DNA of 64,000 bases from a bacterium. GTDB lineage: Bacteria > Zhuqueibacterota > QNDG01 > JAFGCO01. The stretch covers positions 186,001-250,000 of the forward strand of contig JAFGCO010000055.1 in NCBI GenBank assembly GCA_016932575.1, written 5' to 3'. This document shows, one piece after another, positions 5,244 to 22,862 of the stretch (the stretch's first letter is position 1; every line of letters starts with the position of its first letter). Below the pieces are notes generated by a model. The model did no database searches. It had not been told where the DNA came from and worked only from the letters and a program-made list of their open reading frames with translations. A program made the translations under genes and the position numbers.

Positions 5244-8200
5244 ATGACAAAAAGATCTGATAAAAAAAAATACGTACGGCACTGGTTGCGACGAATTTTC
5301 AGGGTGTTATTTTGGATCACGGGTATTTTTTTGTGTCTGTTTATCGCTGCCATTATTTTTATACGGATTCAGTATCCTGAGCCCCGGGTGCTGCAACTGA
5401 TTTCTGAACAGGTTGAATCCAGCACAGGCATGTCCCTGGAGATACGAGATGTTGCCTGGCACCTGCCTCTTCGGTTGGACGCATCTCAAATCGCACTTAA
5501 TTATCCGGACAGATATACGAAAACAGTCATACCTTTATTCACTTTGGAGCGGTTTTCCGTATCTTTCCGGCTGCTTCCTTTATTAAAACGGCAGGTGGAC
5601 GTGCAGTCTGTCATACTCGACAAGCCCCGGATGTATCTGGATTCGGATCAATGGATTGTACCGCATGCCACTTCAAAAGCGGATTCGGCACCATCAGTCA
5701 AACGGGAAGCATACACATCGCCTGCCAAAGCACTGCCCTTTTCACTGGGATTATCCAGGCTTTCTATGAAGGAATTCGATTGCACCGTTATCCTGCCGCA
5801 CAGTCATAGACACCGGTCTATTCAAATCACCGGGCTGAATTTCAATCTGAATCACCTGAGGATCCCTCGAGAAACGACTGTTTCTTTAGAGAATGTCCGT
5901 GGCAGGATTCATTTATTCACCAACCGGAGCAGAATAAAGTATTCGGAGGACGGATTTGATATCACTTTGGAGCCCGATATTGATATGCGTGCGGCATGGA
6001 GTAAGAATCAGCAATGGCGGGTGCGGGGACGGATGGGTTTGGCTGCCCAAGCCGATACATCCCATCGAATCGATCTTCGAATGGAGGTGATCGGCACAGG
6101 CAAGGGCGATTCCATACACGTGGAAACTGTACAGATGGATCTGGACGGATCGCGGCTTTTCCGGTTGTATGGAGGTGCCTCCCAGCTTGTTACATATCCG
6201 GAATTTAATGCAACACTTGAAAGTGAATCCATAAATTTAAGCCGAATATTTTACATGACTGAAGATTTTATGCCGCCTTCGATACAGAGGGTTTTTGATC
6301 CCTGGGAGATCCAGGGTGATATTAAACTACCTGAGGGAAATATCAGAGGCAATACAGAAGGGATGCATATTCAGATTCATACGGCCTTACAAAACGGGAG
6401 CGTATCCTGTTCAGATAGGGTACTGGACAGCCTGTTTTACCAATTGAACATCGATGGGTATCTGAAAGCTGTTACTCATAAAAATAAGTCTTTCAAGTTT
6501 ACTGACGGACAGATTCAGGGAGCTGCGGGAATGTCTGCCTTTCACCTGGCATTGAATGATTCTGTGGGTATGCAGGCCGGTCCGCTTTTTCTTGAGTTCA
6601 TCTCAAGTATGGATGCCAGCGGTTTGCCCTGCCGAGGCCGTCTTACCGGCCGGTTGGATTCACTGTTCAAGGGACAAGTGGGATTCGATTTTAACTGGGG
6701 CCTGAATCCGGAATCACAGGGAAAGCCCGAGTCTGTCCGTGTAAACGGATTTGTCTTTGCAGACTCAATGGATCTCATGGAACTCCCCAATTGGCCAAAT
6801 ACAGCTCAGGGTATGATGAATCTGAATGTCGATTTGGCCATGCCGAATCTTTACCAGGCCGTGCTGAATATCAGAGCAGAACTTAACGGTCTCGGTTTTA
6901 CTCTGGAGAATCAGACGGGAATTTGGCCGGCTATGAACCTTCGCTCTGAATGGATTATACAAACCGAACCTGCTTTTCGGCAGGTTTGGCTGGACAGCGG
7001 GCATGTTCGTGTGAATGATTTCTTAAACAGCCAGTTTACCGGACAGGCTGATCTGAAGCATCGGGCCTTTTGGATAGAACTCCAAAAATTGACCGTGGAT
7101 CTTGGGAAGGTTCAATCCATCCTTCCGCCGTTGCTTCAGGAGTCGATGGAGAGCCTGACTTTTGGCGGTCAGACCATGATGTCTGCCAGTGTTTCAGGAG
7201 AAGCGACGCAGCCGGATTCTGTTCAGGTCCGGGGTACGATTTCCCTTGAGGATGGAATGTTCTGTCATGGCAATCAGGAACTGAAGGTATCCGGAATTCA
7301 AGGTAAAGTGACTGTGGAGGGAGTTCCGGAAGTTTTAAATGGCAATATCGATTTATCTTTTGGAAAACTCGATTTGGGCGCCAGGCGGAGCCAGCCGATT
7401 GAAGGCAGCCTTTTCCAGTTTGACTGGCAGTGGATTGCAGATGAATCTGTGTCCATGAGTGAAGCGTTGTTACGCAATGACAGTCTCGGTATAGAAGCCC
7501 AGTTTGAGGGAAGTCTCGCTGGTCTGGCGTCCCGACCTGCCCTGTATACGGTTGGAAACATTCAATTTCAAAGAGATGATTGGGTTGAAACAGTACAAGA
7601 AATGAGGATCCGAGGAAAATCTGCAATCAAATTTCAGATAGAACAAAAAGACAGTTCTCAGTATATGGTCATTTCAGGGAGTGCCGCTATGCGGCCCCTG
7701 GAAATGAAACAAAGGGACATGCTGAGTATGAATGATATCCATGGTCGGGTACCGTTTCAAATCGCGCTTGATCTCGAAAAAGGGGTAATTATGACAGATC
7801 CGGATTATTCTCCACCCTCCTGGATTGACTATGAGAGCCGACGAAGTCAGTACAGATCGCTGAATCCTGATCAGGGAGCTCTTTATGCAAAGGTTATTCA
7901 GGTGAGCAGATATCAATTCACCGATCTGGCAATGGATATCGACATCCGGAAAGGCTATATTCAGGTTCCCTGGTTTATGGTTGATCTGTTTAATGGCAAT
8001 GTTGGCGGTTATTTGCAGATTTTTTTAGGTACAGGTCAACCTGAGGATATCGCCTATGAAATTCATGCACAAGCTGCGAGAATCAATGCTGCTGCACTGG
8101 GAGATATTCCTATTGAGAAAGAGGAAGAGGCTGAACTGGATGTCACCATGGCTTTTAGTGGATTGGGTATGGATATTGAAAAGGACATGGAAATAAACGG

Positions 8201-8483
8201 TTACTTTTACATGACTCAAATCGGTCCGAAATTTGCCAGCAGGATGCTGCAGGGACTGGATCCCAATGGAGAAGACAGAAATATCCGGCTGACCCGCAGA
8301 CTGCTGAATATGGGCTGGAAACCAAAGTTGTTCAGCTTTGAGATGCAGCATGGTTATGTATATCCTTCTTTGTCATTATCACAGCCATGGTTTTCACCCA
8401 TCAGGCTGCCGGAAACATTATCGTATGGACGACTGCCGCTGAAATTTTTCCTGGAAAATCCGGGCCTGGCCCAGGCGAAGTAA
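5244..8483 (+). CDS. AsmA-like (YdbH/TamB-type) inner-membrane-anchored periplasmic protein
   Basis: A 1079-residue protein with a basic N-terminus, one signal-anchor helix at about residues 18-36, then a long periplasmic part built of repeated short beta strands. The region just after the anchor (L-I-S-E-Q-V-E-S-S-T-G followed by the V-A-W-H-L-P-L-R-L-D-A element) is typical of AsmA-family proteins. These form elongated beta-grooves bridging inner and outer membranes and are implicated in phospholipid transport to the outer membrane. The next gene, 77 bases downstream, encodes a DUF1318 lipoprotein. In Escherichia coli the AsmA-like YdbH is encoded with the lipoprotein YnbE and DUF1318 protein YdbL, so I read the pair as a YdbH-type system. 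No enzymatic motif is visible. Family call is good; the YdbH equivalence rests on context. Confidence 0.78.
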   Translation: MTKRSDKKKYVRHWLRRIFRVLFWITGIFLCLFIAAIIFIRIQYPEPRVLQLISEQVESSTGMSLEIRDVAWHLPLRLDASQIALNYPDRYTKTVIPLFTLERFSVSFRLLPLLKRQVDVQSVILDKPRMYLDSDQWIVPHATSKADSAPSVKREAYTSPAKALPFSLGLSRLSMKEFDCTVILPHSHRHRSIQITGLNFNLNHLRIPRETTVSLENVRGRIHLFTNRSRIKYSEDGFDITLEPDIDMRAAWSKNQQWRVRGRMGLAAQADTSHRIDLRMEVIGTGKGDSIHVETVQMDLDGSRLFRLYGGASQLVTYPEFNATLESESINLSRIFYMTEDFMPPSIQRVFDPWEIQGDIKLPEGNIRGNTEGMHIQIHTALQNGSVSCSDRVLDSLFYQLNIDGYLKAVTHKNKSFKFTDGQIQGAAGMSAFHLALNDSVGMQAGPLFLEFISSMDASGLPCRGRLTGRLDSLFKGQVGFDFNWGLNPESQGKPESVRVNGFVFADSMDLMELPNWPNTAQGMMNLNVDLAMPNLYQAVLNIRAELNGLGFTLENQTGIWPAMNLRSEWIIQTEPAFRQVWLDSGHVRVNDFLNSQFTGQADLKHRAFWIELQKLTVDLGKVQSILPPLLQESMESLTFGGQTMMSASVSGEATQPDSVQVRGTISLEDGMFCHGNQELKVSGIQGKVTVEGVPEVLNGNIDLSFGKLDLGARRSQPIEGSLFQFDWQWIADESVSMSEALLRNDSLGIEAQFEGSLAGLASRPALYTVGNIQFQRDDWVETVQEMRIRGKSAIKFQIEQKDSSQYMVISGSAAMRPLEMKQRDMLSMNDIHGRVPFQIALDLEKGVIMTDPDYSPPSWIDYESRRSQYRSLNPDQGALYAKVIQVSRYQFTDLAMDIDIRKGYIQVPWFMVDLFNGNVGGYLQIFLGTGQPEDIAYEIHAQAARINAAALGDIPIEKEEEAELDVTMAFSGLGMDIEKDMEINGYFYMTQIGPKFASRMLQGLDPNGEDRNIRLTRRLLNMGWKPKLFSFEMQHGYVYPSLSLSQPWFSPIRLPETLSYGRLPLKFFLENPGLAQAK

Positions 8484-8560
8484 AGCAACCCTATCAGTTC
8501 GGATATAAATGATACGGAAATCAATTTGAGAATTCTATCAATTGAATGGAGGATAAGATC

Positions 8561-9115
8561 ATGAACAAATCAATCCTTTTTCTCCTGATGACCCCCGTCT
8601 TATGGATCGCCGCATGCAGTTTTAAGGCGCCTGAAGTAAGTGTGACTGGTGAAATGACGGCTCTGGAAAGGGAAGTGCTGGGAACATACCGGCAGATCGA
8701 AGAAGACACCTGGATGGTCGCTTCAACCCGATCGGAGGGCAAATCCGAGACACAACAAATTTCCCCTGAAAAAAAGCGGGTACTTGAGGCAATGCAGGAT
8801 CAGAAATTCAACAAAGATGATATCGATGAGTTTAAGCGCAAGGGATATGTGGGCGAAAACAATCAGGGATTCCTCTCGATTCGAGATCATGAAGATTTAA
8901 AAGAAGACGCGTCCGCTTCCGAATTTGTTAAAAAAGTAGTCAATGAAGAGAATTCGGCCCGGGAAATCATCATGAATCGGGTTATCCAGCTGAATGATGC
9001 TTTGAAAAATGCAGTACGCGAAAATGTGATGACCATTTTTGCCCAGATGAACCAGGAGAATTCACCCGCCGGCACCTGGATTCAGGAAAAGATGGGCGAT
9101 TGGGTGAAGAAGTGA
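8561..9115 (+). CDS. DUF1318 (YdbL-like) lipoprotein
   Basis: A 184-residue lipoprotein: basic start, hydrophobic helix and lipobox L-W-I-A-A-C, so the mature protein begins at that Cys. After it comes a segment with V-S-V-T-G-E and A-L-E-R-E-V-L-G. The last 65 residues match the YdbL/DUF1318 pattern: E-E-N-S-A-R near the start of a helix, a second helix (R-E-N-V-M-T-I-F-A-Q-M), then P-A-G-T-W-I-Q and a terminal G-D-W-V-K-K. E. coli YdbL is a soluble periplasmic protein and a separate small lipoprotein, YnbE, forms the outer-membrane end of the YdbH bridge; here lipid anchor and DUF1318 domain are in one chain. Start ATG 8561 is set by a strong GGAGGA (8548-8553); the in-frame ATG 8546 overlaps it. 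Co-transcription with the AsmA-like gene is likely. Confidence 0.83.
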   Translation: MNKSILFLLMTPVLWIAACSFKAPEVSVTGEMTALEREVLGTYRQIEEDTWMVASTRSEGKSETQQISPEKKRVLEAMQDQKFNKDDIDEFKRKGYVGENNQGFLSIRDHEDLKEDASASEFVKKVVNEENSAREIIMNRVIQLNDALKNAVRENVMTIFAQMNQENSPAGTWIQEKMGDWVKK

Positions 9116-9237
9116 AAGTGTATTTTGCCCGGATTTTTTATCGATTATTACCCTAAAGGGACGTTTAGCGGCTTATGTTTTTAAACATCCGGGTGTAAGG
9201 AATACAAAGAGCAGAAAATTTAGAGTATTCAATTTCC

Positions 9238-12200
9238 ATGACAGTTACAATTAAAAAGGCACTTGTTTTAGGTTTTTTCGGATGGCTTTTCATAGGGATA
9301 GTCCATGCAAACCATGAACTTCCCGAAATCCATCAAATAACCACCCATCCGCAGATGGATTTTCAACCGGCAGTATCTCCGGACGGCCGGTGGCTCGCCT
9401 TCGTATCTTCCCGTTCCGGTAATCTTGATATTTGGTTGAAACCTCTGCCCCGCGGGAGAGCAGTCCAGATCACGACCAACCGTTCGGAGGATTTACAGCC
9501 CGTATGGATGCCGGACAGTAAAATGCTCGTGTTTACGTCCAAGCGCCGCGATGCAATGGGTGATTTATGGCGGGTGAGAATCGACAGGAATTCAGGGAGG
9601 TCAAAGGGGAAACCGGAGCAGCTTACTAAGCATCTGGGTTGGGATCAGTCACCCTCTGTTTCCCCGGACGGCCGGTATATTGCTTATGTTTCTGATATGC
9701 ACGGTGGTTTGAAACTGCATATTATGAATCTCAAGTCACGAAAAATAAGGGTGCTGGCTATCGGGAGCGGTGCAGAACCGCGTTGGTCTCCTGACAACCG
9801 GTGGCTGGTTTTCACGGCGTTTCAAGCTACGGCATATGGAGATCTGATGCTGGCCGATATGGAACCTTTTTTTACCGGGGGAGATCCGGAATTTTATCAG
9901 CTCACATCCGGGAATACTCTTGATGCGCAGGCCTGCTGGTCTCAGGATGGCCATTGGATTGTATTCCAGCGCATTCAGGAAGACACAGACGGCGATGGGA
10001 AGCTTTCACCGGAAGATCACGGCAGTCTTTGGGAAAAAGAAGTGCGGGATAAGAAAGGTAGGATTTTATTACAGCGGCAGGAATTCCAGCTTACGACAAA
10101 GCTGTATCATGATCTGACACCATGTTGTCATGATTCAATGATTTATTTTACTTCCCACCGCGGGGGTGGTGAAGATATTTGGGCCATGCCAATGCACGGT
10201 TTAATCTCGCAAAGACTTTCCGTCGATGATCAGTATATGGCGGTCTTCAATCGTTTTGGCATGGTGGTTTCTCCACCGGCACTTCGCCAGGCACTGTTGG
10301 GATATCGCAGAGTTTTAACCCGGTTTCCTCAGGATTCACTCTGGTGTGCCCGTTCATGGATGCGGATCGGTGAATATCAGATTATTTTAGAAGAGTATGA
10401 GCAGGCAAAGGAATCGTTTCAAACCATTCGAAAACAGTATGCATCCTGGCAGGGAGAAGCGGCAGAAGCTGCAGTGAAAGAGGCATCCGTACCGACAGGT
10501 TCGATTTCGTCGCGTATTGCTTTATGCCAATTCGTTATCGACCGGTATCCCACCCAGAAATTCGCCATTAATGAAGCCCGGCTGCTTCAGGGAGATTTAT
10601 TTCAGGCAAGTAATGACATTGGCAGAAGCGTTGCTGCTTATAGTGCGGTCGTACAGTCGGGTATCCGCTATAGCAGTCTGATCGCCCAGGCTAAGCTCAG
10701 GATTGGGGATTTGTTTGAAACACAGGGCCAGTCAGAGACAGCAAGGCAGAGTTATCTGGCAGTATTGCGTGAATACGGACAAACACCCCTCTGGCGTCAG
10801 CGTGCCATTCAGCGCATCATGGCACAGGTGAGCGGATCTTTATCCGAGAGAATAGCCGCTTATAAAGAGATTCAATCGCAGGCTTCCGATCTGCCTTCTT
10901 TGGTGTCTGAGGCTCAATTGGCTATAGGCCAATGCCTCATGGATAATGATCAGTTCCTGGCAGCGATTCAGGAACTGGAGCAGGTGGATTTAATTGCTCC
11001 CCGGCTTCGATGGGCTCAGGCTAAATCGCGTCTGATGCAGGCCTTTGCTTATGATCGGCTCAATGATTTTTTAAAGTCCAGGCAGCTTTTGGTTACTGTG
11101 ATTGAAAATTACGCTGATGTTGAAGGTGGGCACTACCGTATTCAGGCCGAGCAGCAGTTATTTGATTTAACATTTAATGCAGCGGAACGGTCCAAATCTT
11201 TGGGAGATTTTCCCCTGGCTGCGGCGCGTTATGAAATGGCATTGCGCCAGCGCCCTGAAGATATTCGGGTACATCGCGGACTGGTGGAGTCCAATTATTA
11301 TTATCAGAAGCAGTATCAGAACGGCAAGCTTGATTCATTGATTCAGCAGCTTAAGCGGAAGATACAGGAAAATCCCGATCAGCCGGTTTTACAATATGGT
11401 TTGGGGCTGGCTCTCTCTTATGCGGGAGAGCGGGATCTGGATATGCTGGAGTCATCAAATACCCATTTACTTGCCTCTCTGGAAGATGATTATCGTTTGA
11501 TTTATCCTTATCGAACCCTCGGCTATAATTATGAGCTGATGGAACGGTTGGTTAGACTCGAACAGAGCCGCCGTCCCAATCTGATTCAGAGAGCCGGTAA
11601 AGTGATTTTCACACCGGTGCGATGGATGGTCCGGCTCTTTCAAAAAGAGAAAGACACTGGACCGGTGCAGTATTATGAAAAAGCCATTGAAGTGTTGACC
11701 ACGGCTATTGAGCTGAATGATGAAAGGGAAAATGTCCGTATGGAGGCGGAACTGGCACAAAATCTGGCCAATAATTTTTACAATCTGGGGGAGTATGGTT
11801 TTCCAAAAGCCTATCGATACTATCAGAAACGATTATCTTTGGATACGACTTTTCATCAATCTCTGGAAAAGGCGATTTTTTACAGCCGGGCCGGGCATTG
11901 CGCTCTGGGATTGGACAATTATTCTCAGGCGGAACACTATTTGAAAACCTCCATACGGCTTTATGAAAGTCTGGGACGGGAGTCGCTCATGGCTCAGGAC
12001 CAGGGCCGGTTGGCATATCTTTTTCAACGGTTTGGACATCATCAGGAAGCCATCACGCTTTATGAAGTTTTGGCTGATCGGGATTTTCGCCAGAGTAACC
12101 AGGAGGCATTGATTCGCGATTACCGTAATATTGCATATAATTATCACGAATTGTGGGAGCCTGAAGATGCTGTCCGGTATTCTGAAAAAGCAGAAGCTGT

Positions 12201-15200
12201 TTTAAAAACCCGAAATATTCCTATGGGGCCTCCGGAAAAGAGTTACCTGCGGTGGGAATTTTTCGGGTTTTCAGTACCAATATGGGGTCTGGAAGAAATC
12301 GGTGCCAGTTCTTCTGAGGGATTTACACTGGCGGAGGAAGCAGCGTTTGTTTTCTCCCTGATCAGCAGGAATGCAGAGCGTCTGAAAGATTTTTCAAAAG
12401 CAGTGCTGTATGAAGAAAAACGACTGGCAATATTTCAGAAACGCAGGGACAAGCTGGCCCAACGTATCAGCATGAATCGCATTGGTGTGCTGCTGATGAA
12501 ACAGGGCCGGTATGAGGACGCATGGGAAAAATTTAAAACGGCATATGATATGAGCCGCAAGGCTGATGATAATCGTGGGCGCTGGATCAATGCCATGAAT
12601 TTGGGCCAGGTAGTTATTGTTCAGCTTTCCCTGAGCGGGGTATCCGGGCATCGATCGGCCTGCCGCCAGTTGCTGCTGAAAGAAATTGATCGGCTGAAAG
12701 CTGACGGCCCGGTTGCAGAGAAACAGGGCATGACCAGCCTGTTGGGGATCCTTACCTTCTATGAAATAAAAGTGAAAGATGCTTTCACCGGATTGACTTC
12801 CATTGAGCAGACTGCCAAACAATTAAAGGTTCTGGCAGAAGCAGATCACTGTTTTAATGAAGCCCTGGGATATGCCCGGCAGCAAGGTTCCTGGCGGGAA
12901 CAGGCGATTCTTCTGAAGAGCAGGGCAACTGCAGCCATTCTTTCTGGAGACAGAATGTACGCGGCGAACCTGTTAAAACAAGCTGAGACCTTGCTGGAAA
13001 CAGGCGGTGGAACTTATTATTTATGGCGCGTGAGATATGCCTTGGCAGGATTAAGTGCCGGATTTTCTCAAATCCAGCGGGATTCTATGAATCTGAAGAA
13101 TCCCTTGTGGTATTATCAGTCGGCCATCGAAGGTCTTGAGTCGTTACCGGTCATTGAAGAGGACAGTGAACTGCGGATGGATGATCGCTCAGACCGGTGG
13201 TATGTGTACATTGATGCAGCTATTACCTATGCAGAAGCACATGATCTGGAAATGTCTTTTACCCTGGTGGAACGCGGTCGTGAGAAACGGGTGGCTGATA
13301 TATTGGCCAGGCGGCCACCAAATTTAAGGCGAGAGAGACATAAAAATCTTTGGCGCAACCTGCGGGATGTGCGTGCCCGGCTGGGGGAGGTGCGCAAGCA
13401 GATTCTGTCTGTAGAAATGGACAGCAAGCGTAAAGATGACCTGAAAATCCTGAAAGATAAAGCCGATTTGTTAAAAAGGGAGTATGAATCGTTTATGGCG
13501 GACATCCAGGCAGAAGATCCTGTACTGGCCTATTTGTCAGGGGCATCAGACATCGATGTGCCATCTCTGCAGTCCACACTGCGTGAGGGGCATGGTGCGC
13601 TTTCTTATATGATACATCCAGACAGACTCACGATTCATGCACTGGATCGGGATACTATTTTTATCCGCCATGTTCCCATTGAAGGTGATACGCTGAAGGC
13701 CTGTATTCAAAGCCTTCAGACTGCTGTCAGGCAGAATCGTGACGCAAGCGTTTTTATTGACAGCCTGTCTCAGTGGCTGCTGTTTTCCCTGGAAGACTGG
13801 CTGATGACACGGTCGCATCTGATTCTTATTCCAGACGATGTAATCTGGCAGGTGCCATTTGAGTTGTTGAGATTGAAAGACATGTATATTACAAAAAGGC
13901 AAACGATTTGTTATTCACCCAGTCTGATGGCGTATAAAATGGCCGGAGAACGAAGGAGGATCAACCAGTCACGTTTATTGCTCACAGGAGATTCATGGGA
14001 CATTCCGATAACAAGCGGCATTCCGCAGCAGACCGAGCTGCTGATTGGCTCGAAGGCAACGGAATCCATGTTCAAGGAGAATATTGTCAGTGCCGATTTG
14101 ATTCATATGGAGCGCTGGATGTTGCCGAACGAAAAAAGCCCTCTTACGGCTTCTATCATTCTCGCACCGGATTCCGAGAAAGACGGTTATTTGCATGCAC
14201 AGGAATTGTTCGAATGGGATATACCGGCATCCATGGTCAAATTGCCTGTTTCACGTATGGATCCTGCGTATCAAAGCTGGGAATTGTATTATTACGCATT
14301 TCTCTATGCCGGGACGCCGTCCATGATTTTCACGCGATGGTCCCCGACGACGGAAAGCAGGATCCGGTTTTTTCAAGCCTATTACTGCGAATTAGTCCAA
14401 TTATCATTCGCCGGCGCCCTGACTGCAACAATCGAAAATCTGATCAGTCAATCAGATGCATTGCCAATACGGGCATCTTATGGTTTAATGGGTTACGAAG
14501 GCATGGATGCTCAGGATCGACTGGTATTCGCACGCCAAAATCTGGTCAGTACTGTGATGGCGGGACGCCATTATATGCAAATGGATGAATATCAAGATGC
14601 CATCGGACGATTCGAGCAGGCTTTGGTTATGGCAGAATCCATGAAAGATTCCACAAGCATTCGAGGGATCATGCTTGAAATTATCCGTGCGGGCATGCAG
14701 GGAGAAATCTGGGAGAAGGCCATTGCCTATCAGAAGCGGATGATCGATTTGTTCGGGGCTTCGGAAAACATGCAAGTTGCCCAACAAAATCTGGTGACCT
14801 TTTATTATCGCAGCGGTCGTTTTCAAGAAGCAGCCGAAACAAAGGAGCACGCCCTGGAGCAAAATCGTACTTTAAAACAGTGGCATCAGGTTGCCCAGGG
14901 AGCGATGGAACTGGCTGTGATTTATGCTTCGGCACGGAATTATCAGGCATCAGTTCACTGGGCGGATGAAGCATATCAAACCTATCTTTTTTTGGATCAA
15001 GCTCAGGGCAAAGCCAGATCGTTAATCTGGAAAGGGCGTTCATTGCTCGATTCAGACCGATTTTTTGAAGCAAGGGCCGCCTTTGGGCTGGCTATAGAAA
15101 TCCTTGAAAAAGAACAGGACAGTGAGAGAGATTTTCAGACCTTTGAACTGGCCACAGCCTATCAGCTTCGTGGCATTTGTTTGGAGAATCTCAGTCTTTA

Positions 15201-17397
15201 TCAAGAAGCAATAGATGATCAGTACACCGCTTTGTCCCTTCTAAAATCCATGGAAAAACCTTTGCAGGTCGCCCAGGGTCAGCAATATCTGGCAAATGTG
15301 AGCTGGAAAATGGGAGCCTTTCGGCAAGCGTTGATGTTTCAGGAACAGGCATTAAAAGCATTCGAAACCCTTGGCCAGCGTAAACATATGGCCATGGCTT
15401 ACAGTACGCAAGGATTAATCCAGATGAGTCTCGGTGAAGTCACCCGGGCGAAGGTTTCTGAAGAAAAAGCTTACAAACTGGCCAATCGTATTCAAAGCCG
15501 GGAGGATGAGGCCACTATTTTAAAGAATATGGGACAAATTGCTATTCAGGAATACAATTTCGAAGAAGCGTTTCAATATTTTCGGCAGGCTATGGATATT
15601 GACAGCAGTCTGGGCTTGCGTCGCGGGCTGTCCTACGATTACAGGAATCAGGGTATGCTGCTCATTCAAATGCGGCAGTTCAATAGAGCCATTACAATGC
15701 TGCAGAAGGGCCTGAGCCTGGCACAATCCGTTCAGGATTTGCGAAACCAGATTCAGTGTTTTTATGGATTGGGATTGGCCCATTTGCGAACAGGGCAGTT
15801 TCATGAAGCCCTCGCTGCCGTAGACAGCGGTATGGTCCTGGCAAAACATCTGGTTGTACCGGCATTGTCGTGGCGACTCCGACGGCAGCGCGGACAGATT
15901 CATTGGGCACTAAAAAATCGAGATGAAGCGCTGACAGACTTTAAGGCTGCTGTTGAGATTGTGGAACGAATGAGGGCAGAATTAAAAATTGAAGCATTTA
16001 AACAGGGATTTTTCGACAGCAAGATGGATTTATATCAGGACATTATTCAGCTGTTGCTGGAAATGCGGGAACGGGCATTGGCATTTCATTATGTGGAGCG
16101 GGCCAAATCCCGGGATTTCATTGATATGCTGGCAAATCAACAAGTGGTTGTTCCGGAAACCCAGAAAATTTTCCTTGATAGAGAAAAGATACTAAAAACA
16201 AGAATACAGGAAGCACAAAATCAAATCGCTCAGCACCGGGATGCTTTGGTTTGGGAGGAAAGAGGATTGTGGGAGGATTCTCTCCGGGTATTGCATGCGG
16301 CCTATAGCGCATTGGTTGTTTCGATTCAGGCCACAAATCCGGAATTGGCGTCGTTAATTAGTGTGGATCCATGGACAGCCGACCTTGTGCAGGCGCATTT
16401 ACCACAGAATGTGGCGATTATCGAATATTATTGGGGAGCCCGATCTGGTTATTGCTGGGTTGTTACTCCAGATGAAATCAAACTGGCTTTCATCAATGTC
16501 TCTCAGGAAGAGCTTGGTCAGACAATCAAATCACTTCGTGAAAAGCTGGTTTCACATCTATCTGTGGATCAGGAAAGCCGATTGTTGTTTGACTGGCTTA
16601 TTTCCCCAGTGGATGGATTTCTGGAAGGCATATCGCATATAATTATCGTTCCGCACGGTATTCTGCATTATCTGCCCTTTTCAGTATTGCAGGATGAGAG
16701 GGGTTTTATCGTGGATCGGTTTACCCTGTCTCTGGCTCCGAGCAGCACAGTGCTTGGGTATTGTTTGAATAAAGGCGGGCCTACCCCAAATAATCCTGCG
16801 CAGGTGGCGGTCACTGCCTTTGGTAATCCGGATCTGGCAGACCCTTTGCTTGATCTCCCCTATGCTGAGAAAGAGATTGTTGCTCTCGAGTGGGCATTTC
16901 CGGAGGTGACCGCATACTCACGGCTGGAAGCGAACGAAGCCAATGTCAAAAATCACGTAAATAAGGCGGATATTCTGCATTTTGCCTGTCATGCAACTTA
17001 TGAGCCGGAAGCCCCGCTGTTTTCTTCTTTGCTGCTCAGCCCGGCTTCCCAGGAAGACGGCCGGTTGGAAACCCAGGAGATTTTCGGGCTTGATTTGAAC
17101 TGTCATCTTATTACGCTCAGTGCCTGCGAAACCGGTTTGGGCAGGATTACCCAGGGAGATGAAATTATAGGCCTTGCCAGGAGTTTTATTTATGCGGGGA
17201 CGCCTTCTATTCTGACCAGTTTATGGAAAGTCGACGACCTGGCAACCGCTGTAATGATGAAACGATTTTACCGGTATCTTGCTGCCGGGAACTCCAGATC
17301 AGAATCGCTGAGACAGGCTCAGCTTATTGTTCGAGAATTGGTAAATCCGCATCCGTCTGCGTGGGCAGCTTTTTATATTACAGGGGATTATCGGTAG
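9238..17397 (+). CDS. Giant exported PD40-TPR-CHAT*-TPR-CHAT protein (putative cysteine peptidase)
   Basis: 2719 residues. A signal peptide (about 1-25, ending near V-H-A-N) sends it across the inner membrane. Residues ~40-320 are a TolB/PD40-like propeller with repeated S-P-D-G-R-W signatures starting near 42, 86, 137, 179, 228 and 291, including an EF-hand-like loop D249-T-D251-G-D253-G ending at E259/D260. Residues ~330-1400 are TPR-type helical repeats. Residues ~1430-1750 form a CHAT-like domain lacking both catalytic residues (W1627 and S1672 occupy the His and Cys positions). A second TPR array follows (~1757-2330), then a C-terminal CHAT domain (~2400-2719) with H2585 in H-F-A-C-H-A and C2630 in L-S-A-C-E-T-G. 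CHAT domains are caspase/separase-related peptidases, often controlled by TPR units. The TPR-CHAT unit seems duplicated, with one copy degenerate. Substrate and trigger are unknown; the downstream gene encodes an exported M3 peptidase. Confidence 0.9.
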   Translation: MTVTIKKALVLGFFGWLFIGIVHANHELPEIHQITTHPQMDFQPAVSPDGRWLAFVSSRSGNLDIWLKPLPRGRAVQITTNRSEDLQPVWMPDSKMLVFTSKRRDAMGDLWRVRIDRNSGRSKGKPEQLTKHLGWDQSPSVSPDGRYIAYVSDMHGGLKLHIMNLKSRKIRVLAIGSGAEPRWSPDNRWLVFTAFQATAYGDLMLADMEPFFTGGDPEFYQLTSGNTLDAQACWSQDGHWIVFQRIQEDTDGDGKLSPEDHGSLWEKEVRDKKGRILLQRQEFQLTTKLYHDLTPCCHDSMIYFTSHRGGGEDIWAMPMHGLISQRLSVDDQYMAVFNRFGMVVSPPALRQALLGYRRVLTRFPQDSLWCARSWMRIGEYQIILEEYEQAKESFQTIRKQYASWQGEAAEAAVKEASVPTGSISSRIALCQFVIDRYPTQKFAINEARLLQGDLFQASNDIGRSVAAYSAVVQSGIRYSSLIAQAKLRIGDLFETQGQSETARQSYLAVLREYGQTPLWRQRAIQRIMAQVSGSLSERIAAYKEIQSQASDLPSLVSEAQLAIGQCLMDNDQFLAAIQELEQVDLIAPRLRWAQAKSRLMQAFAYDRLNDFLKSRQLLVTVIENYADVEGGHYRIQAEQQLFDLTFNAAERSKSLGDFPLAAARYEMALRQRPEDIRVHRGLVESNYYYQKQYQNGKLDSLIQQLKRKIQENPDQPVLQYGLGLALSYAGERDLDMLESSNTHLLASLEDDYRLIYPYRTLGYNYELMERLVRLEQSRRPNLIQRAGKVIFTPVRWMVRLFQKEKDTGPVQYYEKAIEVLTTAIELNDERENVRMEAELAQNLANNFYNLGEYGFPKAYRYYQKRLSLDTTFHQSLEKAIFYSRAGHCALGLDNYSQAEHYLKTSIRLYESLGRESLMAQDQGRLAYLFQRFGHHQEAITLYEVLADRDFRQSNQEALIRDYRNIAYNYHELWEPEDAVRYSEKAEAVLKTRNIPMGPPEKSYLRWEFFGFSVPIWGLEEIGASSSEGFTLAEEAAFVFSLISRNAERLKDFSKAVLYEEKRLAIFQKRRDKLAQRISMNRIGVLLMKQGRYEDAWEKFKTAYDMSRKADDNRGRWINAMNLGQVVIVQLSLSGVSGHRSACRQLLLKEIDRLKADGPVAEKQGMTSLLGILTFYEIKVKDAFTGLTSIEQTAKQLKVLAEADHCFNEALGYARQQGSWREQAILLKSRATAAILSGDRMYAANLLKQAETLLETGGGTYYLWRVRYALAGLSAGFSQIQRDSMNLKNPLWYYQSAIEGLESLPVIEEDSELRMDDRSDRWYVYIDAAITYAEAHDLEMSFTLVERGREKRVADILARRPPNLRRERHKNLWRNLRDVRARLGEVRKQILSVEMDSKRKDDLKILKDKADLLKREYESFMADIQAEDPVLAYLSGASDIDVPSLQSTLREGHGALSYMIHPDRLTIHALDRDTIFIRHVPIEGDTLKACIQSLQTAVRQNRDASVFIDSLSQWLLFSLEDWLMTRSHLILIPDDVIWQVPFELLRLKDMYITKRQTICYSPSLMAYKMAGERRRINQSRLLLTGDSWDIPITSGIPQQTELLIGSKATESMFKENIVSADLIHMERWMLPNEKSPLTASIILAPDSEKDGYLHAQELFEWDIPASMVKLPVSRMDPAYQSWELYYYAFLYAGTPSMIFTRWSPTTESRIRFFQAYYCELVQLSFAGALTATIENLISQSDALPIRASYGLMGYEGMDAQDRLVFARQNLVSTVMAGRHYMQMDEYQDAIGRFEQALVMAESMKDSTSIRGIMLEIIRAGMQGEIWEKAIAYQKRMIDLFGASENMQVAQQNLVTFYYRSGRFQEAAETKEHALEQNRTLKQWHQVAQGAMELAVIYASARNYQASVHWADEAYQTYLFLDQAQGKARSLIWKGRSLLDSDRFFEARAAFGLAIEILEKEQDSERDFQTFELATAYQLRGICLENLSLYQEAIDDQYTALSLLKSMEKPLQVAQGQQYLANVSWKMGAFRQALMFQEQALKAFETLGQRKHMAMAYSTQGLIQMSLGEVTRAKVSEEKAYKLANRIQSREDEATILKNMGQIAIQEYNFEEAFQYFRQAMDIDSSLGLRRGLSYDYRNQGMLLIQMRQFNRAITMLQKGLSLAQSVQDLRNQIQCFYGLGLAHLRTGQFHEALAAVDSGMVLAKHLVVPALSWRLRRQRGQIHWALKNRDEALTDFKAAVEIVERMRAELKIEAFKQGFFDSKMDLYQDIIQLLLEMRERALAFHYVERAKSRDFIDMLANQQVVVPETQKIFLDREKILKTRIQEAQNQIAQHRDALVWEERGLWEDSLRVLHAAYSALVVSIQATNPELASLISVDPWTADLVQAHLPQNVAIIEYYWGARSGYCWVVTPDEIKLAFINVSQEELGQTIKSLREKLVSHLSVDQESRLLFDWLISPVDGFLEGISHIIIVPHGILHYLPFSVLQDERGFIVDRFTLSLAPSSTVLGYCLNKGGPTPNNPAQVAVTAFGNPDLADPLLDLPYAEKEIVALEWAFPEVTAYSRLEANEANVKNHVNKADILHFACHATYEPEAPLFSSLLLSPASQEDGRLETQEIFGLDLNCHLITLSACETGLGRITQGDEIIGLARSFIYAGTPSILTSLWKVDDLATAVMMKRFYRYLAAGNSRSESLRQAQLIVRELVNPHPSAWAAFYITGDYR

Positions 17398-17549: not shown

Positions 17550-19631
17550 ATGAATCATCCATCTTATCGGTTTGTTATTAAAGCCATCGCTGTTTTAGGG
17601 ATTATTGTACCTTGTTTCATGACTGCCAAAACTATGGAGAATCCAGTGTTTACTGAATTTAATAAACCCATTGCATTTGATCAGTTTACAGCAGATGCCG
17701 TGAATGGTGCCAAGGATCAGGCTGTCGTTAAAATGAAGACCGGCCTGGAATCGATCTATGCAATTCCGCAGCAGGAGAGAACATTCGACAATACGCTTAA
17801 AGCATTAGACAGCTTATACGATGAATTCAATACAGTCTGGAGCTCAGTCTATCTGATGGCCTATACACATCCGGATGATGCATTGCGTAATGCCTGTAAT
17901 GAAGCGAATGTTGTGTTTGAAAAATTCAGCAATGCCTTGGCCATGGATGAAGACCTATACAATGCCGTGAAAGCCTATTCTGAAACAAAAGAAGCAAAAT
18001 TTCTTTCCGGTTATAAAAAGAAATTTTTGGATGAAACGATGCGGGATTTTCGAAGAAACGGATTCGGACTTCCCAAGGCAAAGCGGGATACACTGAAAAT
18101 TCTGAAAGATAAAATTACAGAAATTTCCAACACATTTTCAAAGAATATTCGGGAATATGAAGATTCCCTTATTGTAGGGGAAGAGGATGTTCAGGGACTG
18201 CCGGAAGATTACAAAAAGGCGCGTGTGCGTCAGGACGGTACTTATGAAATCGATCTAACGTATCCTTCCTATATTCCTTTTATGGAATACTCAGAATCCG
18301 ATTCGGCCCGTAACGCCTTGTATTTGAAGTTTACAAACCGTGCCAAAGATACCAATCTGAACGTGCTGGACAATCTTCTCAACCATCGTCAGAAAATGAT
18401 AGATGTCCTGGGCTATAAGACATATGCGGATTACCGGCTGGAGACCCGCATGGCAAAAGAGTCTGAAACCGTTTGGGATTTCGAAAACCAGTTGCGAAAC
18501 AAGGTTATGGAAAAGGCAAAGATCGATTATAAAGAACTGCTGCAAGCCAAACGGGAATTTACCGGTGACCCGAGTGCGGATAAGATTTATTCATGGGAAA
18601 AATCCTTCTATAATACATTGCTTCTCCGCACCAAATATAATCTGGATCCGGAAGAAGTAAAACAGTATCTGGAACTGGATCGTGTGCTGGAAGGACTTTT
18701 TACTGTGACCCAGACCCTGTTTGATGTAACCTATCAGGAAGTCGAAGATGCCCCTGTATGGCATGAAGAAGTGCGGATGTTTGATGTTTATCAGGACGGA
18801 AAAATGATCGGCCGGTTTTATATGGATATGTTTCCCAGAAAGAATAAATTTTCTCATGCTGCCTGCTTTGGTCTCGTGAAAGGACGTCAAACCGAAAAAG
18901 GGTATCAGTTGCCTTCTGCAGCTATGGTATGCAATTTTACCAAACCCATGGATGAGAAGCCATCGCTTTTAAGTCATGATGAAACCGTGACATTTTTTCA
19001 TGAGTTCGGGCACTTGCTTCACAATATTCTCACGCGTTCTCCTTTGAGCAGCTATGCCGGAACGAATGTTGAGCGTGATTTTGTTGAAGTGCCTTCCCAA
19101 CTTTTGGAAAACTGGGCCTGGGATTATAGCTCTCTGAAACGCTTTGCCAGGCATTATGAAACTGGTGAAGTGCTTCCCAGGACACTGTTTGATCGAATGA
19201 TTGCTGCCAAGAATGTCAATTCCGGCAATAATACACTGCAGCAAATATACTACGGTATGCTGGACATGACATTTCATGATAAATATAATCCCAACGGTCC
19301 GGTATCTACAACACAGGTTGTCAAGGATTTACAAAATGAGGTAACGCTGTTTCCTTATGTAGACGGATCTCATTTTCATGCGAGTTTCGATCATCTGACC
19401 AATTATGCGGCCGGATATTATGGCTATCTGTGGGCGCTTGTATACGCTCAGGACATGTTCTCTGTTTTTGAGGAACAGGGGATTCTGGATAAAACCACCG
19501 GAAAGCAGCTGAGAGATAAAGTCTTTGCCAAAGGAGGTACGGAAGATCCTAAGATTCTGGTGAAAGATTTTCTGGGCCGCGAATCCAATCAGAAAGCATT
19601 TCTGAAATCACTGGGTTTAAAGACCGATTAA
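17550..19631 (+). CDS. Exported M3-family zinc oligopeptidase
   Basis: A 693-residue metallopeptidase of the thimet oligopeptidase/Dcp/oligoendopeptidase group, which trims short peptides inside a closed channel. The zinc site H484-E485-F-G-H488 is followed 25 residues later by E513 in D-F-V-E-V-P-S-Q, the usual third ligand. The substrate-binding tyrosine/glycine-rich segment near the C-terminus (H-F-H-A-S-F-D-H and A-A-G-Y-Y-G-Y-L-W) is present, so the enzyme should be active. Most M3 enzymes are cytosolic, but this one starts with a hydrophobic segment (I-K-A-I-A-V-L-G-I-I-V-P) that looks like a signal peptide, pointing to a periplasmic or outer location. The start is fixed by a strong GGAGG a few bases upstream of ATG 17550. 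It follows the CHAT giant by 152 bases and is followed by a clear terminator. Confidence 0.92.
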   Translation: MNHPSYRFVIKAIAVLGIIVPCFMTAKTMENPVFTEFNKPIAFDQFTADAVNGAKDQAVVKMKTGLESIYAIPQQERTFDNTLKALDSLYDEFNTVWSSVYLMAYTHPDDALRNACNEANVVFEKFSNALAMDEDLYNAVKAYSETKEAKFLSGYKKKFLDETMRDFRRNGFGLPKAKRDTLKILKDKITEISNTFSKNIREYEDSLIVGEEDVQGLPEDYKKARVRQDGTYEIDLTYPSYIPFMEYSESDSARNALYLKFTNRAKDTNLNVLDNLLNHRQKMIDVLGYKTYADYRLETRMAKESETVWDFENQLRNKVMEKAKIDYKELLQAKREFTGDPSADKIYSWEKSFYNTLLLRTKYNLDPEEVKQYLELDRVLEGLFTVTQTLFDVTYQEVEDAPVWHEEVRMFDVYQDGKMIGRFYMDMFPRKNKFSHAACFGLVKGRQTEKGYQLPSAAMVCNFTKPMDEKPSLLSHDETVTFFHEFGHLLHNILTRSPLSSYAGTNVERDFVEVPSQLLENWAWDYSSLKRFARHYETGEVLPRTLFDRMIAAKNVNSGNNTLQQIYYGMLDMTFHDKYNPNGPVSTTQVVKDLQNEVTLFPYVDGSHFHASFDHLTNYAAGYYGYLWALVYAQDMFSVFEEQGILDKTTGKQLRDKVFAKGGTEDPKILVKDFLGRESNQKAFLKSLGLKTD

Positions 19632-20357: not shown

Positions 20358-22094
20358 TTGGGAGAGTTTGATCGATGTAGCCGTAACAAGAGGCGCTGTT
20401 GTCTGGCGATTATGGGTGTATGTACTGCAATGCATCTCTGCGGTCAGGTGTTGATTAATGAGATCATGTTCAACCCGGACGGCTCGGAACATACGGATGA
20501 ATTCGTTGAAATTATCAATACAGATTCATCATTGTCTGTTGATTTGTCAGGATGGACTGTCCATGATGGTGAAGACGGGGACAGGATCATTGAAGCGGGG
20601 AAGGGTTTGATTCTTGCGCCGGATCAGATTGGATTGATCCTGGATGCCGATTATTTTCAAAAGTCGGATGAATATCAGGCGCTCATTTCCAAAGATGCGC
20701 TTGTTCTCACTGTCGAGGGATCCACTATAGGAAATGGCGGGCTGTCCAACAGCCGGCCGGAATGTGTAATGCTTATTAATGTTGACGGACAGATTGTGGA
20801 TAGTGTGCGATATGATATTGGTATCGCTTCCGGCCATTCCTATGAGCGGGTGGCGCTGGATCTTCCATCCTGTGATCCTTTGAACTGGAGAGAAAGCCAC
20901 TCAGTGTATGGAAGTCCTGGGTGCCTAAATAGTGTTTCACCTGTGATGTATGATCTGACAGTCGTTGAAATGGTCTGCCATCCTTCTTCTAAAAAGGATT
21001 TGACTGAAAGGTGCTTTGATATTACGATCCGTAATGCCGGAAAAAATCCGGTTTATGACGCGGGGATTGTTCTTTTCGAAGATGTCAACAGGGATTCGCT
21101 CCCTGCAGAGTCTGAAGCAGTATGTACATGTAATATTGATGCACTGTCGGCTGGAGACACCACTGTGGTCCGGCTTCCATGGTCTGCCCATCAATATGGA
21201 GCACATTGCATGGGAATAGAAATTGTCCTGTCCTCTGATGAAAAACCGAATAACAACCGTTTGTTTTCAGATATATGGATCCCTTATCCTGTTGGAAGTT
21301 TGGTTATTAATGAAATCATGGCTGATCCGTTGCCGGATGCTCCGGAATGGATCGAATTGTATCATCCGCAGCCGTATTCTATAGACCTGCTTGGCTGGTA
21401 TTTATCCGATGAAGACACGACTCATCGATATTTGATTTCAGAAACATCCGTTTGTATACCTCCGAAAAGCTATATGATTCTTTCCGAGAGTAAAAACCTG
21501 CCTGTTTCCGTATCGGATGCCTTATTGATTGAGATGCAGCCATTTCCGAACTTTAATAACAGTCAAGACGGTATATTTCTTTTTGATCCCGGTTTAAATG
21601 TGATAGACAGCGTTGCCTATTGTCATGCTTGGGGGGGTGGAAAGGGTGTTTCTTTGGAACGCATTCAGCATAAGGGAGAATCTAATAACAGTGCCAACTG
21701 GTATGGCTGCATATCTTTAGAAGGCATGACACCGGGTGTTAAAAACAGTGTTTCTAAGGATAGTATAAACTGCAGGGCGACACTTAATATCGATCCAAAT
21801 CCTTTTTCACCTGACGGTGACGGAATGGATGAAGTCGCCTTTATCCAGTACAGACTGCCTTTTGAATATGCAACGATCACACTGTCTTTATATGATGTTC
21901 AGGGACGGTGTATTCGTCATCTCAGACGGGGCATTGAAAGCGGCGGGGAGGGCGTTGTACTCTGGGACGGCAGGGATAATTCAGGACGCAGGGCAAGAAT
22001 CGGGTTATATGTGGTTTTTCTGGAAGTACTGGATTATGCATCGGGAGCAGTGATTCAGAAGAAGACCACAGTGGTCCTGGCCGGAGTGCTGTGA
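20358..22094 (+). CDS. Exported protein with two lamin-tail domains and a FlgD-like C-terminal domain
   Basis: A 578-residue surface or secreted protein. The start is a TTG at 20358, chosen because AAAGGAG (20343-20349) sits eight bases upstream. A basic stretch and a hydrophobic segment (about residues 11-29) form a probable signal peptide. Two lamin-tail domain (LTD) modules follow: one beginning L-I-N-E-I-M-F-N-P at about residue 33 and one beginning V-I-N-E-I-M-A-D-P at about 315, each with the W-I-E-L or F-V-E-I and L-S-G-W or L-L-G-W elements. The C-terminal ~100 residues begin N-P-F-S-P-D-G-D-G-M-D-E and carry a V-L-W-D-G-R-D strand and an I-G-L-Y-V strand, as in FlgD-type Ig-like domains at the ends of secreted FCB-group proteins. 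LTDs often bind DNA, proteins or surfaces; the specific role here is unknown. The stop overlaps the next ATG. Confidence 0.85.
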   Translation: MGEFDRCSRNKRRCCLAIMGVCTAMHLCGQVLINEIMFNPDGSEHTDEFVEIINTDSSLSVDLSGWTVHDGEDGDRIIEAGKGLILAPDQIGLILDADYFQKSDEYQALISKDALVLTVEGSTIGNGGLSNSRPECVMLINVDGQIVDSVRYDIGIASGHSYERVALDLPSCDPLNWRESHSVYGSPGCLNSVSPVMYDLTVVEMVCHPSSKKDLTERCFDITIRNAGKNPVYDAGIVLFEDVNRDSLPAESEAVCTCNIDALSAGDTTVVRLPWSAHQYGAHCMGIEIVLSSDEKPNNNRLFSDIWIPYPVGSLVINEIMADPLPDAPEWIELYHPQPYSIDLLGWYLSDEDTTHRYLISETSVCIPPKSYMILSESKNLPVSVSDALLIEMQPFPNFNNSQDGIFLFDPGLNVIDSVAYCHAWGGGKGVSLERIQHKGESNNSANWYGCISLEGMTPGVKNSVSKDSINCRATLNIDPNPFSPDGDGMDEVAFIQYRLPFEYATITLSLYDVQGRCIRHLRRGIESGGEGVVLWDGRDNSGRRARIGLYVVFLEVLDYASGAVIQKKTTVVLAGVL

Positions 22095-22285: not shown

Positions 22286-22530
22286 AAATTTATCAACATT
22301 GTTTTGCTGTTTTTAAGCAATTGAACATATTCTTCTGAAAACCGAGTTTTTTATATTAAATTTGCTCTTTTATGATATTCATCACATGATAATGGCCATA
22401 ACATTTTAATTTTAAAAAGTTTAACCTTATTTATAATATTTAAGATAATATATTTCAACTTTATATTTCACATTCATATAGATGGACATTTATGATTTTT
22501 CTTATGTTATAAGGCGATTTTTTGCAGATT

Positions 22531-22547
22531 TCACAAGTTATCCACAT
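22531..22547 (+). repeat. DnaA box within 17-bp direct repeat, copy 2
   Basis: Positions 22538-22546 read TTATCCACA in the same orientation as copy 1. The two repeats start 262 bases apart, close to a whole number of B-DNA turns, with an AT-rich segment between them. This copy lies about 120 bases upstream of the rpsU start. Confidence 0.65.
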
Positions 22548-22643
22548 TTAGTTCACGCGTTTAACGGACTAAACTGTTATAAAAACCGCTTGCGTCCAAA
22601 AACGAAATTTCATATATTTCAAGGCGTTAAATTATCAAGTATG

Positions 22644-22660
22644 AAAGGAGGGATCACTCC
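22644..22660 (+). promoter_or_regulatory. rpsU ribosome-binding site in a small hairpin
   Basis: AAAGGAGGG at 22644-22652 is an unusually strong Shine-Dalgarno sequence, but lies 12 bases from the ATG at 22665, longer than normal. GGAG (22647-22650) can pair with CTCC (22657-22660) across a six-base loop. This would hide the site or, if it forms on the ribosome, shorten the spacing. Autogenous control by S21 is an inference. Confidence 0.45.
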
Positions 22661-22664
22661 ATAT

Positions 22665-22862
22665 ATGCCTGCAATCAAGGTTCGTGATGGTGAACCGTTT
22701 GAGAAAGCGTTCAAGCGGTTTACCAAACAGTGCGAAAAAGCCGGATTAATGTCAGATATTAAAAAGCATCAGCATTATGAAAAGCCCAGCGAAAAGAAAA
22801 AACGAAAGATTAATGCGGCAAAGCGTAAAATGCGGAAGCTGTCGATTATGATGAACCGCTAA
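22665..22862 (+). CDS. rpsU: 30S ribosomal protein bS21
   Basis: A 65-residue, very basic protein. It begins [19 protein letters not shown] and ends in a Lys/Arg-rich helix ([13 protein letters not shown]), the standard S21 pattern. S21 sits near the anti-Shine-Dalgarno end of 16S rRNA and assists initiation. Two upstream in-frame starts exist: ATG 22641 lies just before the ribosome-binding site, and one at 22482 gives a non-S21 extension; both are rejected. In E. coli rpsU and dnaG share an operon. Here they are about 4.6 kb apart, with yqeY next to rpsU as in many bacteria, so the macromolecular-synthesis grouping is loosely kept. Confidence 0.95.

Follow-up and report, generated by a model that had tools for sequence, protein, structure and literature searches.

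A single uninterrupted open reading frame on the forward strand, at positions 9238–17397 of the window (the whole 64,000-nucleotide stretch analyzed here), starts with ATG and encodes a protein of 2719 amino acids, hereafter the giant. Its chain runs from a signal peptide through a TolB-like six-bladed propeller to a TPR array, a CHAT domain (CHAT1), a second TPR array, and a second CHAT domain (CHAT2). The gene adjoins genes for outer-membrane lipid transport, and the giant is therefore probably a scaffold for envelope upkeep. In the reading that we prefer, and to which we give about even confidence, it would serve an envelope lipid pathway involving AsmA and DUF1318 proteins as a scaffold or sensor in the periplasm; its propeller and first TPR superhelix would be the conserved working part, CHAT1 would be inert, and CHAT2 would be a TPR-controlled peptidase in most lineages.

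Export signal, propeller, and first TPR superhelix

Pfam searches of the giant returned PD40 (E 1e-36, four stretches within aa 30–330), numerous TPR matches, and CHAT in two stretches (E 1.6e-82). Both CHAT domains also exceeded the curated cut-off of 24 bits for PF12770 in a search of the genome, CHAT1 with 54.8 bits at 13762–14451 and CHAT2 with 229.5 bits at 16576–17388. The N-terminus, MTVTIKKALVLGFFGWLFIGIVHA/NHE, resembles a Sec signal peptide (aa 1–24, 9238–9309), with cleavage presumably following VHA, and its hydrophobic peak reaches 2.38 compared with 1.88 for the best other segment of the giant. Export was called by hydropathy and in homologues with a complete 5' end; all 50 of these carry a hydrophobic export-type segment ahead of the propeller. 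Four (G024, G046, G076, G077) have a lipoprotein-like signal that ends in an apparent lipobox. The signal peptide proposed in the first-pass annotation is thus borne out by hydropathy, both here and in the homologues.

The same genome contains four more TPR-CHAT genes (L066 11764–15330, forward; L067 2102–5869, reverse; L068 1596–4868 and 4923–8099, both reverse), of which the two in L068 stand in tandem. Each has an intact C-terminal Cys motif, and the protein in L067 has a C-terminal membrane helix besides its N-terminal segment. All four begin with hydrophobic signal-like segments, and the transmembrane TPR-CHAT protein DdvA of Myxococcus has been solved (PDB 8rot, 8rw5); an exported CHAT protein alone is therefore not new, and the first-pass annotation, which was right about export, overstated how unusual it is.

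The propeller (aa 30–320, 9325–10197, forward strand; PF07676) and the first TPR superhelix that follows it (aa 329–990, 10222–12207, forward strand; placed by predicted secondary structure and Pfam TPR matches) were both recovered in an AlphaFold2 (AF2) model of aa 26–1060 with a mean pLDDT of 89.8. In a fold search, the modeled propeller matched TolB with a Z score of 28.6 (2.0 Å over 239 residues, 20% identity), in agreement with the TolB-like propeller first suggested from the sequence. The giant has the six-bladed PD40 fold in common with TolB of the Tol-Pal system and probably a periplasmic location as well, but it lacks the TolB N-terminal domain. Membership of the TolB family was ruled out, as the giant scores 127.1 bits with TIGR02800 against a cut-off of 343 and matches at profile positions 226–388 alone. 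In a search of the G000 genome with the same model, the propeller of the giant was the top match at 111.5 bits and no protein reached the cut-off, so that a standard TolB may be missing from that genome. Conservation across the whole protein peaks inside the first TPR superhelix, at aa 710–900 (11365–11937), where comparison of homologues revealed the motifs LGLAYSY, LNDE, and NLANNYYNLGEFG.

The two CHAT domains

The second TPR array (aa 1760–2240, 14515–15957, forward strand) was delimited by Pfam matches. When the CHAT1 and CHAT2 units were compared profile to profile, 471 columns aligned end to end with an E value of 8e-65, which indicates at the sequence level that a helical-repeat/CHAT unit has been duplicated inside the protein.

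The two copies have not kept the same residues. CHAT1 (aa 1450–1755, 13585–14502) was modeled by AF2 with a pLDDT of 91.7, and its unit found its best fold match in Csx29 (Z 26.7, 3.5 Å, 370 residues); matches to separase ranged over Z 22–24, the best having a Z of 24.4 (3.2 Å, 298 residues). When the CHAT1 alignment was searched as a profile against PDB sequences, the matches listed were all TPR and repeat proteins; the likeness to Csx29 is one that becomes visible by fold search. In the profile alignment, W1627 (14116–14118) and S1672 (14251–14253) stand opposite the catalytic H2585 and C2630 of CHAT2. Cys occupies its column in none of 45 aligned homologues and His in two of the 45. As judged from alignment and model, CHAT1 has a genuine CHAT fold that lacks both catalytic residues, which makes it a degenerate pseudo-peptidase, and a reading with two active CHAT peptidases is ruled out.

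CHAT2 (aa 2447–2717, 16576–17388, forward strand) is a predicted caspase-like peptidase with an intact His/Cys dyad formed by H2585 (16990–16992) and C2630 (17125–17127, in the motif LSACETG), both assigned by comparison of motifs among homologues. H2585 presumably corresponds to the dyad His of Csx29. The two residues are invariant across a 17-member alignment, so the catalytic Cys singled out in the first-pass annotation can stand, now paired with H2585. Most complete members of the family have kept the dyad. It is absent in G047, G064, G049, G029, G038, and G065; the giants of G017 and G012 terminate after CHAT1, and the CHAT2 motif was not seen in G027 or in G050, where the giant is cut by a contig end. 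The KSB1 giant of G023 (L058 4434–9608) stops inside CHAT1 at 1724 aa, possibly through a frameshift, and was nevertheless put with the CHAT2-less members in the tree.

To account for this pattern on a tree built from the TPR region, several inactivations or losses of CHAT2 are needed overall, at least three of them on well-supported branches. Among divergent pairs without the dyad, CHAT2 identity is 13–22%, compared with 44–64% for the propeller and 47–54% for the TPR core (aa 650–1020); in pairs with an intact dyad, CHAT2 identity is 45–61% and that of CHAT1 26–34%. The close pair G047/G064 was uninformative for this comparison. From these sequence comparisons, CHAT2 is not essential to the giant family, in which it has undergone three or more losses and the propeller and the core have stayed conserved.

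Distribution and gene neighborhood

The relatives of the genome that supplied the window belong to candidate division KSB1. A profile of the core gave strong matches (E under 1e-60) in 57 of 82 genomes of the phylum, and the giant is also present in LCP-89 (L102), in a relative (L105), and in Delongbacteria (L108, L109). There is about one copy per genome, complete giants are mostly 2.65–2.9 thousand amino acids long, and wherever the protein is complete, in KSB1, LCP-89, and Delongbacteria, its domains are collinear. Recurrence of one domain order throughout a taxonomic order and most of the phylum excludes chance or a local fusion artifact, so that the arrangement originally reported from a single sequence is real.

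Two genes precede that of the giant on the same strand. The first (5244–8483) encodes an AsmA-like protein of 1079 aa (PF05170, E 9.8e-12), presumed to be an inner-membrane lipid-bridge component and conserved as an upstream neighbor; it matched AsmA, DUF748, and weakly YhdP, and gave no match to the YdbH-specific model. The second (8546–9115) encodes a DUF1318 (YdbL-type) protein with the lipobox WIAAC, assigned by PF07027 (E 9.4e-13), synteny, and co-occurrence, for which an ATG at 8561, with GGAGG about 11 nt upstream, is the likelier start. Its homologues share a conserved lipobox followed by a motif of the type C-S-[IV]-K-A-P-E-x-x-[VI]-T-G-E-K-T-A-L-E. The genes are separated by 62 bases (AsmA/DUF1318) and 122 bases (DUF1318/giant), and no terminator-like site was found on the forward strand within 7973–9875.

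The AsmA-DUF1318-giant order, on one strand, recurs through the phylum. DUF1318 was found in 58 of the 82 genomes and the giant in 57, with both present in 54 and neither in 21 (Fisher p 1e-12, a value that ignores shared ancestry). The 21 joint absences fall mainly in families f12 and f13 and genus g41. In 44 of the 54 genomes that have both, one contig carries the two genes on one strand, with DUF1318 directly upstream of the giant; the exceptions are several contig breaks and family f17, whose G028 and G036 have the two unlinked on long contigs and others of whose members have them on separate contigs. LCP-89 retains the pair. No DUF1318 gene was found in the stretches around the Delongbacteria giants, and a DUF1318 search of five LCP-89 and Delongbacteria genomes located it, unlinked to the giant, elsewhere in the latter. 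Gene order alone could persist by descent.

A gene for a UDP-sugar enzyme upstream is likewise partly syntenic. Downstream, 17550–19631 encodes a possibly exported oligopeptidase of the M3 family with a hydrophobic segment at its N-terminus; it was rejected as a part of the system because it was not found next to the giant in the other genomes. Further on are a protein with two lamin-tail domains, FlgD_ig, and a weak C-terminal match to CHU_C, of the type IX secretion type (20358–22094), and a small reading frame of uncertain start (22482–22862) whose C-terminal half is like ribosomal protein S21 and which has an unusual in-frame N-terminal stretch.

The DUF1318 family search also matches in E. 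coli, where we take the DUF1318 protein to be YdbL. In that species ydbL is encoded in the ydbH-ynbE-ydbL locus (PMC8593681), and YdbH with the lipoprotein YnbE is described in PMC11784454 and PMC12977461 as a bridge for phospholipid transport to the outer membrane. The window resembles this locus in placing an AsmA-like gene beside a DUF1318 gene and in including a lipoprotein signal; it differs in the extra giant of 2.7 thousand residues, in the location of the lipobox on the DUF1318 protein itself, and in YnbE, for which no separate gene was found, the 62-base AsmA/DUF1318 gap containing no third gene.

Function and relation to known systems

In the proposed mechanism, the giant would be exported by Sec to the periplasm, with lipid anchoring in some lineages, and would cooperate with the products of the two upstream genes, the AsmA-like protein and the DUF1318 lipoprotein, in intermembrane lipid transport or outer-membrane homeostasis of the YdbH/YnbE/YdbL type. 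The partnership, the lipid role, and the existence of a peptidase substrate are what we infer. The propeller and first TPR superhelix, with its core at aa 710–900, may be the binding site for the bridge, for its lipoprotein, or for a different partner in the envelope, and CHAT1, as a product of the internal duplication, may be a structural or docking pseudo-domain. CHAT activation in Csx29 is driven by TPR (PMC10028731), and the second TPR array could similarly hold CHAT2 in check until it is moved by a signal from the envelope, in the way of the TPR activation region of Csx29. Freed CHAT2 would then cleave an envelope regulator or partner, a step that the family could do without, several lineages having lost CHAT2. 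In view of the conserved cluster and of the retention of the propeller and TPR core through repeated CHAT2 loss, two features absent from the first-pass annotation, the peptidase seems to be an add-on to an envelope factor and not its core function. A more specific form of the proposal, a protease-regulated intermembrane lipid bridge in which an AsmA-type bridge is read by the exported propeller-TPR scaffold and switched by its built-in periplasmic caspase/separase-like peptidase, strikes us as unlikely.

The emphasis could be placed differently. The giant would be an envelope-stress signaling protease if a signal in the periplasm were sensed by its propeller and TPRs and a regulator, for instance an anti-sigma factor, were cut by CHAT2; the AsmA and DUF1318 proteins would then be incidental or simply the pathway that is monitored. 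This is a possible, if doubtful, reading. It draws on the intact dyad of most lineages, on the cleavage of a sigma-factor inhibitor by Csx29 (PMC10028731), and on DdvA, a transmembrane anti-sigma factor of unknown trigger (PMC4374960) whose TPR-CHAT fold lies near the CHAT1 unit (Z 19.7), but the gene and its location persist where CHAT2 has been lost, on at least three occasions, and no sigma or anti-sigma gene was recognized beside the giant in the window, where annotation was partly by eye. CHAT2 might conversely be mainly a binding module like CHAT1, even with its dyad intact, leaving a pure envelope scaffold. The inactivity of CHAT1 across the family and the dispensability of CHAT2 in parts of families f18, f7, f8, and f11 would fit such a protein, which we nonetheless think quite unlikely given that CHAT2 is strongly constrained exactly where the dyad is intact (45–61% identity against 26–34% for CHAT1) and that its His and Cys do not vary in the 17-member alignment.

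An exported anti-phage or programmed-death effector, kin to the TPR-CHAT defense proteases, is disfavored as highly improbable. CHAT proteases are known in type III-E CRISPR systems and have been linked with gasdermin activation (PMC9729208), but the giant is conserved phylum-wide, at about one copy per genome, in a housekeeping-like cluster. PADLOC yielded a generic TPR match only, which speaks against a defense system, and no Cas match was found among the four gene products scanned. Membership of the Csx29 family was also ruled out, the NCBIfam model NF041237 giving 38.6 bits where 300 are required.

Among the known systems nearest to the giant, Csx29, of the type III-E CRISPR system Craspase, has a TPR array and a C-terminal CHAT domain with a His/Cys dyad; unlike the giant, it is cytosolic, about 700 aa long, and bound to Cas7-11, and it has neither a propeller nor a duplicated TPR-CHAT unit of the giant's kind. 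DdvA is likewise a membrane-linked TPR-CHAT protein in bacterial envelope signaling, aligning with the CHAT1 unit at Z 19.6–19.7 and weakly in sequence with CHAT2 (E 0.15), but it has 991 aa and one CHAT domain; it was not among the 50 matches listed for the propeller and TPR model, which bears neither way on a shared propeller. Eukaryotic separase also combines a long helical-repeat region with a caspase-like domain, but it is a cohesin protease without propeller or signal peptide. No described protein with the giant's domain order, pseudo-CHAT/CHAT tandem, or gene cluster was found in the open-licence literature, and we know of none. What appears to be new is the domain order, the tandem, and the AsmA-DUF1318 cluster, export alone being already known.

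CHAT proteases of the caspase-like kind are known chiefly for their role as immune switches in the cytosol, and a phylum-wide exported member beside lipid-bridge genes would bring them into envelope biology. Lineages with an intact, dead, or absent CHAT2 in one gene provide a natural series in which the contribution of the peptidase can be tested. The host phylum is little known, and the full complexes of AsmA-type systems are still being defined (PMC12977461); the giant is a candidate additional component of such systems.
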